64,000 nt of DNA, taken from NCBI GenBank assembly GCA_032881465.1, contig CP126168.1, forward strand, positions 3,411,501-3,475,500, read 5' to 3'. The notes under the pieces were generated by a model, which was not told where the DNA came from, searched no databases, and saw nothing but the letters and a program-made list of their open reading frames with translations. This document shows positions 3,143 through 57,447 of the stretch, in pieces. Source of the stretch: Parvibaculaceae bacterium PLY_AMNH_Bact1 (GTDB lineage Bacteria; Pseudomonadota; Alphaproteobacteria; Parvibaculales; Parvibaculaceae). The translations under genes and the position numbers were made by a program. Position 1 is the stretch's first letter; each line of letters begins with the position of its first letter.

Positions 3143-3864
3143 TGAGCAGCTACCGGTTGCTTGGCCCGGCGGCCAGGTTCGATGGACTCGATCAACCCAT
3201 CTTTCAAACGCACCACACGATCGCATGCTTCTGCAAGTTCCGGGTCATGGGTAATGAGCACCAGCGTCGTGCCTCGTTTCTCATGCAGGTCGAACATGAG
3301 CTCAATAATCTGCTCGCCGGTCGTGCCGTCGAGATTACCTGTCGGCTCGTCGGCCAGAAGAATTTTGGGGTCGCCGGCAACGGCGCGCGCAAGCGCCACC
3401 CGCTGTTGTTCACCACCTGAAAGCTGGCCTGGATAATGAGTGAGACGGTGCGACAGCCCTACATGAGCCAGTTCTTCTTCAGCGCGCTGAAATGCATCCG
3501 CACGTCCCGCTAGCTCCATGGGCACTGCCACATTTTCCAGCGCCGTCATGGTCGGAACCAGATGGAAGGACTGAAAGACAATTCCCACATGATCGCGGCG
3601 GAAGAGCGCCAGCGCATCTTCATTCATGCCCGCAAAATTCTGACCGGCAACCGTCACGGTCCCGCTGGTTTGCTTTTCAAGCCCTGCCAACACCATCAGA
3701 AGCGTACTTTTGCCCGACCCGGAAGGCCCGACCAAACCCACCGCTTCACCTTTTTCTACAGTCAGCGACAGCCCTCGCAAAATGTTCACTTCGCCAGCAG
3801 CACTTGGCAGAGTTAGTTTAAGATCATCGAGGCGAATAATAGGGTCGTTTGGCGTATCTGACAT
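3139..3864 (-). CDS. ABC transporter ATP-binding protein, YbbA/LolD family (241 aa)
   Basis: Complete ATPase domain: Walker A GPSGSGKS, Q-loop 'VFQSFHLVPTMTALENV', signature LSGGEQQRVALARA, Walker B ILLADEPTGNLD and switch His in LITHDPEL. The 'PTMTALENV' and 'DEPTGNLD' wording is characteristic of the LolD/MacB/FtsE group that energises FtsX-type permeases. The chosen start (MSDTPNDP, ATG at 3864) follows a GC-rich stretch without a strong ribosome site; an in-frame extension upstream to 3957 has a basic, low-complexity sequence and is unlikely. Its last base pairs overlap the permease start. It is divergent from the esterase gene with about 110 bases between starts, which must hold both promoters. 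Confidence 0.92.
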   Translation of the reverse strand: MSDTPNDPIIRLDDLKLTLPSAAGEVNILRGLSLTVEKGEAVGLVGPSGSGKSTLLMVLAGLEKQTSGTVTVAGQNFAGMNEDALALFRRDHVGIVFQSFHLVPTMTALENVAVPMELAGRADAFQRAEEELAHVGLSHRLTHYPGQLSGGEQQRVALARAVAGDPKILLADEPTGNLDGTTGEQIIELMFDLHEKRGTTLVLITHDPELAEACDRVVRLKDGLIESIEPGRRAKQPVAAQ

Positions 3865-54442: not shown

Positions 54443-54841
54443 CTACTCCGCACACTCAGGCGTCAGAGCAGCATCGGCGAGGAACGCAAGCAGCGCCTTT
54501 CGCTCATCTGCATCCTTGACGCCCGCATAGCCCATGAAAGTACCAGGAACCGTACCGCGCGGGTCCTCAATGAAAGAGAGAAGCCTCTCTTCATCCCATG
54601 CAAACCCGCTCTCAAGCATTGCACCGGAATAGCGGAAGCCGGGCACAGTCCCCGCAGCTCTACCCACCACACCACAAAGACGCGGGCCCGTCCGATTACG
54701 GGTGAGCGAGTGGCACGCCTGACAACGGCTGAAAACATCCCAGCCCTCAGCAATAAGCTCTGTCGGCACGGCCGCCATTGCGGGCATTCCGCCGGCAACA
54801 AGCAGCCCTGCCAAGCCCACACTCAACAAAAACCTCTTCAT
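54443..54841 (-). CDS. Periplasmic cytochrome c, class I (132 aa)
   Basis: Signal peptide (SVGLAGLLVAGGMPAMA) then a class I fold with the haem motif CQACH (Cys40, Cys43, His44), 'GPRLCGVVGRAAG' and the axial Met in PGTFMGYAG, around residue 103. An extra Cys pair (LCG … TPEC) may form a disulfide. It overlaps the upstream ferritin-like gene by one base (TAATG) and could pass electrons to or from that protein. Confidence 0.92.
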   Translation of the reverse strand: MKRFLLSVGLAGLLVAGGMPAMAAVPTELIAEGWDVFSRCQACHSLTRNRTGPRLCGVVGRAAGTVPGFRYSGAMLESGFAWDEERLLSFIEDPRGTVPGTFMGYAGVKDADERKALLAFLADAALTPECAE

Positions 54842-55422
54842 TATTCGACAAAGGCCACGGGAACAGGGTCTTCACCAAGGGCACCGCGAAGCACAGCCCA
54901 ATGCATGGCTTCATCGCCCAAAATGGACGCAGCAACTTTCGCAAGACCGCGATCATCAAGAATAGGCACCGCGCCCAGATAAGCACTCACAGCCCCTTTC
55001 TCAAGCCCGGCAGCAAGACGCAGTACAGCCGCTTCATCCGTCAACTTGTCCAATGGAAAGCCATAGTCAGTGAGAGGTTCATCCGGCGTGCCGCCAAGCT
55101 GCTGCACCGTGGCGATGAGTGCATCCACATGTTCTCTGTGATGATCGCGAAAACTGATGCCAAGTTTTAAGGCGTCGGCAGACAGCAACCCGCTTGCCGC
55201 ACCCAGTTCATAGGCTGCAATCGCCTCATACTCCGTGGAGACAGCAGCGTTTAAAATGGTGACGTCATTTTCACTGGCTTGCGCTTCGCCAATCAATGTA
55301 CGCCCGCCAGCTCCGGCCATCATTGCCAAAGCAGCACCCGATAACATCATCGTGCTGCCCTTGGTAAGAAAGCTCCGCCGCCCCTCTATCATTGTGATTG
55401 CTGAATTGTTCTTCTCAGACAT
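54841..55422 (-). CDS. Tat-exported ferritin-like domain protein (193 aa)
   Basis: The N-terminal EGRRSFLTKGSTMMLSGAALAMM with twin Arg (15, 16) is a Tat-type signal; cleavage likely follows GEAQA. The mature part is a four-helix ferritin-like domain: 'TEYEAIAAYELG', 'FRDHHREHVDALIATV', and 'LGDEAMHWAVLRGAL' supply Glu and His that can bind a di-iron site. A redox or iron-handling function in the periplasm is likely. It lies between the sigma-factor gene and the cytochrome gene. Confidence 0.85.
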   Translation of the reverse strand: MSEKNNSAITMIEGRRSFLTKGSTMMLSGAALAMMAGAGGRTLIGEAQASENDVTILNAAVSTEYEAIAAYELGAASGLLSADALKLGISFRDHHREHVDALIATVQQLGGTPDEPLTDYGFPLDKLTDEAAVLRLAAGLEKGAVSAYLGAVPILDDRGLAKVAASILGDEAMHWAVLRGALGEDPVPVAFVE

Positions 55423-55518
55423 TGCCGTCTCCCGGTCAGGTGGTCATGCGGCCGATGTGGCCCTACCCCCTTAACCCGAGAACACCGCAAATGGATGCAT
55501 CAATAGAACGAGGATCAT

Positions 55519-55824
55519 CTAAAGAAACTGGAAAACAATCAGTACAGAGATAATTAATGCAACCAACAAACCATGCCACCGCTCAAAACGCGCGCGGGGG
55601 GAAGCCCTCGTTTCGCGAGATATCCCCTCCCAAACAGCATCACGGGGTCGCACCGGCGCCAGCAGGGTAAGGAGTGCGGCAAAATCATCTGCCCATCTGT
55701 CGGCGGCAGCACAATATTTGGCATCCGCGTCTCGCCGCCGCTGGAAGGCGGGGGTGGCAGTCGGCGGCAACACGCCCAACTCATGCTCCGCAGCCAAAAG
55801 GTCGTGAACCGCTTCGCCACGCAT
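55519..55824 (-). CDS. Possible internally initiated short anti-sigma protein (101 aa)
   Basis: In frame inside the sigma-factor gene: ATG with GGAGGAG ahead of it at ribosome-site spacing. The product would start MRGEAVHDLLAAEHELGVL and hold the RskA-like domain plus the terminal helix. In related bacteria the anti-sigma factor is a separate gene right after its sigma factor, so this could be a relic of the unfused form or a real second product. Confidence 0.4.
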   Translation of the reverse strand: MRGEAVHDLLAAEHELGVLPPTATPAFQRRRDADAKYCAAADRWADDFAALLTLLAPVRPRDAVWEGISRETRASPRARFERWHGLLVALIISVLIVFQFL

Positions 55825-56427
55825 CCCATCTCCTCCGCCAAGACACCGCCCCATCTGGTGCAGACCCCGCCGCACCCAGCTCTTTGCGGTGCCAAGCGGC
55901 ACATCCAATCGACCGGCAAGCTCCTGATGGGTGAGCCCTTCGAAATAGACCAGCAGAAGCGCGCGCTTCTTGTCCCCGTCAACGCCCGACAGGCACGCGC
56001 GAACCCGACGCACCCGCTCAGCCGACAGGACTTTGTCAAATCCCGACACCGCATGCGCGTCGGGGGCATCTGCCATGTCGTAGCCATCATCGACAATAGC
56101 GGCCTGTCTATATGTTTTTACCGCAAGAGTGCGCGCCCGATTGCGTACCACTGTGGTGATCCAGGCAAGTGCCGAGCCGCGCGCAGGGTCAAACTGTGAG
56201 GCTGACTTCCAGATCCGGATATAGCCCTCCTGCAGAGCTTCTTCGGCAAGGTCTGCTCGCCCCGTTGTGCGCAGACACAGCGCGTAGAGCCTCGGACTTG
56301 TCAGCTCATAGAGCTCAGAAAACGCCCGACTGTCAGACCGCACGACACCAAACAACAAATCGCGCAGCGGATCCTTCACCGGTACGCCTGGCGAGGCCTC
56401 CAGTTTAATCTGAGCGCTCGACACCAT
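55519..56427 (-). CDS. ECF sigma factor fused to a short RskA-like anti-sigma with membrane helix (302 aa)
   Basis: Residues 20-90 form sigma region 2 ('FSELYELTSPRLYALCLRT', 'EEALQEGYIRIWKSASQFD'). Residues about 140-195 form region 4 with 'LLLVYFEGLTHQELAGRL' and 'PLGTAKSWVRRGLHQM'. The frame then continues without a stop into 'VHDLLAAEHELGVL' and 'ADRWADDFAALLTLLAPVRP', the N-terminal sigma-binding signature of ChrR/RskA anti-sigma factors. It ends in a single helix (WHGLLVALIISVLIVFQFL) with no periplasmic domain. Met202 (ATG at 55824) is preceded by GGAGGAG with 5-base spacing, so a separate anti-sigma protein could also be made. Start of the whole protein at 56427 behind AGGAGGT. Confidence 0.8.
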   Translation of the reverse strand: MVSSAQIKLEASPGVPVKDPLRDLLFGVVRSDSRAFSELYELTSPRLYALCLRTTGRADLAEEALQEGYIRIWKSASQFDPARGSALAWITTVVRNRARTLAVKTYRQAAIVDDGYDMADAPDAHAVSGFDKVLSAERVRRVRACLSGVDGDKKRALLLVYFEGLTHQELAGRLDVPLGTAKSWVRRGLHQMGRCLGGGDGMRGEAVHDLLAAEHELGVLPPTATPAFQRRRDADAKYCAAADRWADDFAALLTLLAPVRPRDAVWEGISRETRASPRARFERWHGLLVALIISVLIVFQFL

Positions 56428-56560
56428 GAGTAGACCTCCTATTGGAGCCGCAACCAGAAACGACACGACCCCTTACCCCGCAAATATGGGAGCGGATGCA
56501 TAAAACCGAGATCACCTTGGTGTGAAAGCACACCAAAAGGGTGCCCCACCAGCGTTCTCA

Positions 56561-56600: not shown

Positions 56601-56734
56601 TTACATTCGATGTGCGCTACGTGACCGACCGGCTTGCCGATCAGCTTATTTATCCCCTGAAAATGTGACCAATTGCGACCCACACGAGCACGAGGCCCGT
56701 GTGGACTTAATCACTTATGTCAGAGGAAAAATCC
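56601..56734 (+). promoter_or_regulatory. Conserved 5' leader of cold-shock gene 1
   Basis: Shares with the leader of gene 2 the blocks TACATTCGATG, GCGCTA, AGCTTAT, TATCCCCTGA and AATGTGA in the same order and spacing. Such long conserved leaders of csp genes fold in temperature-dependent ways. Confidence 0.65.
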
Positions 56735-56944
56735 ATGACAACCGGAACAGTTAAATTCTTCAACGCCTCCAAAGGCTTCGGCTTCATTGAGCCAGAAGAC
56801 GGCGGCAAAGATGCATTCGTGCACATTTCTGCAGTTGAACGCGCAGGTCTCTCCACGCTGAACGAAGGCCAGAAGGTCTCTTACGAGCTTGAGCCAGGCC
56901 GCGACGGCAAGTCTTCTGCTGAGAACATCTCAGTCGTCGACTAA
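56735..56944 (+). CDS. Cold-shock protein, copy 1 (69 aa)
   Basis: Single cold-shock domain binding RNA and single-stranded DNA: '[21 protein letters not shown]' (RNP1 motif KGFGFI), '[14 protein letters not shown]' (RNP2 motif VHI). The start ATG at 56735 follows GAGGAAAA; an earlier ATG at 56717 gives six more residues. It differs from copy 2 at only a handful of residues. Confidence 0.95.
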
Positions 56945-57237: not shown

Positions 57238-57447
57238 ATGCCTACAGGCACAGTTAAATTTTTCAACGCAACCAAAGGCTACGGCTTCATTGAGCCAGAA
57301 GACGGCAGCAAAGATGCATTCGTGCACATTTCTGCTGTTGAGCGTGCGGGCCTCTCCACGCTGAACGAAGGCCAGAAGGTTTCTTTCGAGCTGGAAACCG
57401 GCCGCAATGGCAAAGAGTCTGCTGAGAACCTCTCGGTTGTTGAATAA
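57238..57447 (+). CDS. Cold-shock protein, copy 2 (69 aa)
   Basis: Second tandem cold-shock domain: '[21 protein letters not shown]' and the identical '[20 protein letters not shown]'. Only a few substitutions separate it from copy 1. RNA chaperone role known for the family. Own promoter, leader and terminator, so it is expressed independently of copy 1. Confidence 0.95.

Follow-up and report, generated by a model that had tools for sequence, protein, structure and literature searches.

Can an extracytoplasmic function (ECF) sigma factor and its anti-sigma partner be made as one protein, and what would such a protein sense and control? The question is raised by a 64,000-nucleotide stretch of the genome of Parvibaculaceae bacterium PLY_AMNH_Bact1 (contig CP126168.1, positions 3,411,501 to 3,475,500; the whole stretch is referred to as the window), in which a SigK-like sigma factor runs into an RskA-like anti-sigma domain (ASD). 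The single open frame lies on the minus strand, starts with an ATG at 56427 and closes with a stop that ends at 55519 (302 codons). It was compared with loci (L numbers) of other genomes (G numbers). At the level of sequence, the comparison establishes that the two parts are fused and constrained, that a single origin is likely and that the sensor domain is lost, and it brings out a cysteine pattern, linked genes and a shared motif. The parts of the fused gene are listed below.

55519..56427, minus strand: fused gene, 302 amino acids, SigK-type ECF sigma factor, RskA-type ASD and C-terminal membrane helix
55834..56427, minus strand: sigma part, residues about 1-198 (Pfam; SigK chain 4nqw_A)
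55603..55821, minus strand: RskA-type ASD, residues about 203-275, about 75 residues (profile match to separate ASDs)
55522..55572, minus strand: C-terminal hydrophobic helix, residues 286-302 (hydropathy)

The architecture originally predicted, an in-frame fusion of sigma and RskA-like parts with one membrane helix and without a periplasmic sensor domain, was stop-free in 20 genomes, 19 of them analyzed in full and the twentieth being G838 (locus L177). Homologues with the same fusion, in the same frame and free of stops, were present in the genus and family of the window and in Reyranella-type genomes. The census counted the fusion in 5 of the 40 genomes of the window's order, in 15 of the 76 that share an order with G101 and in 3 of 385 sampled from the class, where some homologue at 1e-30 was present in 38 genomes. 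The profile search of a phylum sample, with five candidates scored per genome, gave 2 of 398, both already counted; G000 and G101 alone were stop-free through the profile end and the remaining long matches held a stop. The spread is patchy, with the fusion in just four of the seven listed genomes of the window's own genus. From match start to stop, fused loci measured 280-304 codons, compared to 151-207 in the other rows compared.

In a tree of 64 sigma parts, from which the ASD was excluded, the 19 fused rows formed one clade (support 94/91), recovered in 92% of bootstrap trees, and the rows nearest to it, L048 and L051, were separate genes. The tree carries a warning for long branches, which include L004 and L005, and a single origin is therefore likely and not proved; the fusion probably arose once. 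Some rows of the phylum sample, such as G493:C1:902967-903818, hold sigma and anti-sigma in the same frame with a stop between them, and such pairs possibly picture the step preceding fusion. In G427, G433 and G445, the fusion is accompanied by a second SigK-like sigma factor ending in a stop, and cross-talk between the two is possible.

The sigma half was readily classified. The Pfam scan of the window protein placed Sigma70_r2 at residues 39-100 (1.2e-15) and Sigma70_r4_2 at residues 141-189 (4.2e-10), and sigma-70 regions 2 and 4 were both found in all 19 fusions, as is characteristic of ECF sigma factors. The top NCBIfam model was SigK, at a score below its cut-off (128 of 226 bits). The closest solved chain by sequence was Mycobacterium tuberculosis SigK (4nqw_A, E 1.8e-25), which also ranked first in fold searches. 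The SigK-like assignment (ECF18/ECF19) was drawn from NCBIfam and the solved chains.

For the second half, the Pfam scan reported no anti-sigma family in any of the 19 fusions. A profile built from the fused ASDs alone detected an adjacent ASD for 43 of the 45 separate sigma genes (best E 1.1e-21; the two without a match were L070 and L041), and profile-profile alignment of fused with separate ASDs by hhalign reached a probability of 99.3 (E 1.1e-19). On these profile matches, the second half of the fused protein is an RskA-type ASD. No HxxxCxxC zinc motif was seen by eye in the aligned ASDs, and the "ChrR/RskA" signature first proposed is best restricted to RskA. Searched by sequence against solved chains, the ASD and helix returned no relative and one chance match (E 0.22); the RskA of 4nqw was missing from these matches, which indicates low similarity only. 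An AlphaFold2 model from a 23-row alignment had a mean predicted local distance difference test (pLDDT) score of 78.5 and a predicted template modeling (pTM) score of 0.50, and fold searches matched the sigma part almost exclusively, with the ASD fold hardly covered.

The second half is also the part that selection has held most tightly. Between L001 and L002, the ratio of nonsynonymous to synonymous substitution (dN/dS, Nei-Gojobori) was 0.090 in the sigma part, compared to 0.026 in the ASD and 0.387 in the tail, and the ASD ratio was below the sigma ratio in all six pairs with both ratios, a seventh pair being saturated. Judged by these ratios, the ASD is under strong purifying selection, stronger than in any other part of the protein, and the frame past the junction is translated. 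The tail drifts in sequence yet remains hydrophobic: of the 19 fusions measured, 16 have a clear helix. The window protein ends in 17 strongly hydrophobic residues (mean Kyte-Doolittle score 2.81), with 0 residues following. In L080, L084 and L005, no other frame at the 3' end shows a clear helix; these may be soluble forms or, for L005, whose genome contains ambiguous bases, a product of poor assembly.

The periplasmic part of RskA was sought behind the helix. In the 16 clear-helix fusions, 0-6 residues follow the hydrophobic stretch, compared to mostly 115-145 in clear-helix separate partners, a measurement in which some of the separate rows were read in a wrong frame; not all separate partners had a helix. 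The Pfam scan found RskA_C in none of the 19 fusions and in all three separate partners scanned whole, including L051 from the branch next to the fusions. By this domain content, the periplasmic sensor domain of RskA is lost in the fusions.

What the fusions retained, and added, are cysteines.

55993..55995, minus strand: Cys145, first cysteine of the SigK pair, aligned with the cysteine of "TECL" in 4nqw_A
55843..55845, minus strand: Cys195, second cysteine of the SigK pair (alignment with SigK)
55711..55713, minus strand: Cys239, fusion-specific ASD cysteine (ASD alignment)

The position of Cys145 is kept in all 20 fusions and that of Cys195 in 19, with Arg in L005. Cys239 was found in 19 of 19 aligned fused ASDs, compared to 0 of 43 separate ASDs, and its presence in L177 brings the count to 20 of 20; since the fused rows form one clade, it may represent a single gain kept by descent. 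In SigK, the pair is Cys133/Cys183 and is reported to be required for activation (PMC7509140). The same source puts truncated RskA at only 0.3% of the SigK proteins having the pair (PMC7509140), which makes the combination seen in the fusions unusual.

The candidate targets of the fused sigma factor lie next to it and include a twin-arginine translocation (Tat)-type protein.

54841..55422, minus strand: Tat-type ferritin-like protein (Pfam Ferritin_2), likely target
54443..54841, minus strand: small secreted cytochrome c (c-550-like), likely target, with a one-base overlap with the ferritin stop

The link to these genes, proposed from the window alone, held across genomes: they are adjacent in 19 of 20 fusion loci, that is, both adjoin the fusion in 18 of 19 loci (the window and L100-L117) and in L177, and a promoter-like motif is common to them and the sigma gene. 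The arrangement varies, the two genes following sigma on the same strand in all five loci of the window's family, and the operon diverging from sigma in the remaining 14 loci with both genes. In cropped flanks (3640-3712 and 2357-4049 bases), the ferritin gene was found close to 18 of the 19 fused sigma genes and to 6 of the 45 separate ones; for the cytochrome gene, the counts were 18 of 19 and 3 of 45, respectively. The sister two-gene loci L119 and L178 possess the ferritin gene. The aligned ferritin-like proteins retain the twin arginine and a Glu / HxxH / Glu / ExxH pattern, read by eye and with ambiguous residues in L103; this pattern points to a possible two-metal site. In textbook ferritins, the second helix carries ExxH, where these proteins have HxxH. 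The operon, as the likely target, is redox-related.

The shared motif is found upstream of both transcription units.

56474..56499, minus strand: promoter-like motif GCATCC-N15-GGGTA upstream of the fused gene
55473..55498, minus strand: promoter-like motif GCATCC-N15-GGGTT upstream of the ferritin-like gene

In its strict form (GCATCC-N15/16-GGGTW), the motif matched 35 times across the window and 18 loci (563,524 strand-bases), compared to 0.75 expected on average under a first-order Markov model (20 runs). The matches precede 18 of the 19 sigma genes and 16 of the 18 ferritin genes, and a single one lies elsewhere. One-change variants precede the ferritin gene in L103 and L117, no motif was found before sigma in L103, and in L177 GCATCC-N15-AGGTW was read by eye before both genes. 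A looser form ([AG]GGTW) was upstream of 18 of the 19 fused sigma genes, compared to 3 of the 45 separate ones. In the window's own genome, there were 13 matches, compared to three for the reversed-pattern control. Three separate SigK-like genes of Reyranella-type genomes (L071, L087, and L089) also have GCATCC-N15/16-RGGTW upstream. Further upstream of the fused gene, the plus strand of the window carries two very similar cold-shock protein genes (56717-56944 and 57238-57447), both also found in L100 and L101.

The reading we favor, to which we give about an even chance, is that the fusion is a one-protein, self-inhibited, membrane-anchored ECF sigma factor that senses redox through its cysteines and drives itself and the ferritin-cytochrome c operon. 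The C-terminal helix would anchor the fusion in the inner membrane, and at rest the ASD would keep the sigma part off RNA polymerase in cis. A signal would be read on the cytoplasmic side by Cys145/Cys195, the region 4 pair, together with Cys239; a redox change would loosen the ASD, and the sigma part would transcribe its own gene and the operon from the putative GCATCC-N15/16-GGGTW promoters. In a protein that has lost the sensor domain, the likeliest points of signal entry are the cysteines. Deletion of RskA residues 122-232 reportedly leaves the membrane helix in place. The cytoplasmic part of RskA by itself is described as inhibiting SigK, and in M. tuberculosis neither the RskA deletion 122-232 nor the deletion 87-232 led to activation (PMC7509140). 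On this basis, the fusion at rest is expected to be inactive. A broader evolutionary form of the proposal is tentative and falls short of an even chance: through fusion to the RskA ASD, loss of the sensor and gain of one cysteine, a tail-anchored sigma factor may have become its own redox sensor at the inner membrane face, serving one periplasmic ferritin-cytochrome operon.

Several observations weigh against this self-sensing proposal. Cysteine conservation need not mean sensing, and L005 has only one of the two SigK cysteines. The C-terminal helix is weak in L084 and not clearly present in L005 and L080, so that not every member depends on anchoring. In L110 (G461), neither the ferritin nor the cytochrome gene was found in the 12.8 kb read, and the locus nonetheless retains the motif before its sigma gene. 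The window's own genome holds 11 motif matches beyond the two local sites; the one non-local match examined, at window 17687, is antisense inside an 801-codon open reading frame, and a large regulon, considered on the strength of these matches, was not adopted. The fold model, at its pTM of 0.50, leaves the placement of the ASD on sigma unseen.

A proteolytic switch, in which the site-2 protease RseP would cut the helix of an already trimmed fusion, releasing sigma-ASD, and a cytoplasmic protease would then remove the ASD, leaving the cysteines a structural role, is the best of the alternatives and still rather unlikely. Truncated forms of IutY with short periplasmic parts are reported to be active via RseP and without Prc (PMC5411451), the clear-helix fusions keep just 0-6 residues past the helix, and an RseP homologue is encoded in the window's own genome. 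However, RseP is nearly ubiquitous, with a homologue in all 14 control genomes, the absence of a periplasmic part gives the cleavage no evident regulator, 2 of 19 members are without a clear helix, and the ASD cysteine is left unexplained. The cysteine and the protease readings could be combined.

We consider it improbable that the fusion is an always-active, membrane-tethered sigma factor, with an ASD that is non-inhibitory or only an activator and with control exerted through its own transcription. The absence of the sensor part would fit such a protein, whereas the ASD is its most constrained part, the RskA deletions 122-232 and 87-232 were not activating, and the cytoplasmic part inhibits alone as described for SigK (PMC7509140).

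The possibility that the fused gene also yields a free membrane-bound anti-sigma was raised by an internal start.

55822..55824, minus strand: internal ATG (Met202) with ribosome-site-like GGAGGAG, not conserved

In the window, the ATG at 55824 with its strong GGAGGAG five bases ahead is real, as originally predicted, but as a general mechanism it did not carry over to the relatives. The nearest relative, L002 (80% identical), has CTG at the Met202 position and no ribosome site, and a strong site at the junction is peculiar to the window among the 20 fusion loci. In L177, a different codon has a weaker candidate, and in L002, L076 and L077 no more than a chance-like GAGG precedes a Met within sigma region 4. 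A dual product is thus very doubtful, and on this comparison the internal start would be a strain feature at most. A sequencing or assembly error that deleted a stop, named beforehand as what would refute the fusion, was rejected as the source of the open frame with next to no probability left to it, the junction being open in 20 genomes of two orders, of which G000, G002, G101 and G422 are listed as single contigs.

Sigma/anti-sigma fusions are already known, namely, IutY, ECF48/52/53 and some members of ECF36 (PMC8999054). The closest known system is SigK/RskA (ECF18/ECF19; M. tuberculosis and Yersinia enterocolitica), with which the fusions have in common a sigma part closest to SigK among solved chains, an RskA-type ASD and the cysteine pair. 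The system consists of two proteins instead of one, and the fusions are without RskA_C and have the additional invariant ASD cysteine. The reported targets of SigK systems are mpt83/mpt70 (PMC7509140), whereas the likely target of the fusions is the ferritin-like/cytochrome c operon. In Nocardia, SigK occurs with a truncated RskA, which is likewise a natural loss of the periplasmic part; there, two genes are described, with a remnant of residues 1-81 and a SigK without the cysteine pair (PMC7509140), whereas the fusions keep the SigK cysteines and add one.

IutY of Pseudomonas putida (ECF243) also holds an ECF sigma factor, a membrane helix and an anti-sigma on one polypeptide (PMC5411451, PMC8999054), and a 2022 review describes it as the only hybrid with characterized proteolytic activation (PMC8999054). 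Its anti-sigma is a large periplasmic domain tied to a siderophore receptor, in contrast to the fusions, in which the RskA-type ASD lies on the sigma side of the helix and no periplasmic domain follows. The actinobacterial groups ECF48, ECF52 and ECF53 have a C-terminal anti-sigma-like part and membrane helices, in their case with a domain of the zinc-finger type and extensions that can reach 400 residues as the review presents them (PMC8999054), compared to an RskA-type ASD without the zinc motif and a bare helix in the fusions. In titles and abstract openings of the top-listed papers, neither a SigK/RskA fusion, which the ECF re-classification may list, nor such a ferritin-cytochrome module was found.

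Sigma/anti-sigma hybrids are rare, and this family is a compact case of about 300 residues with a likely target promoter adjacent, two-gene relatives for comparison and a cysteine confined to the fused form. Work on SigK/RskA left open whether SigK reads a signal via its own cysteines once the RskA sensor is lost, as stated there (PMC7509140), and the fusion family makes this question testable. Through the fusion, the regulation of a little-known periplasmic pair, the ferritin-like protein and its cytochrome c, also becomes accessible.
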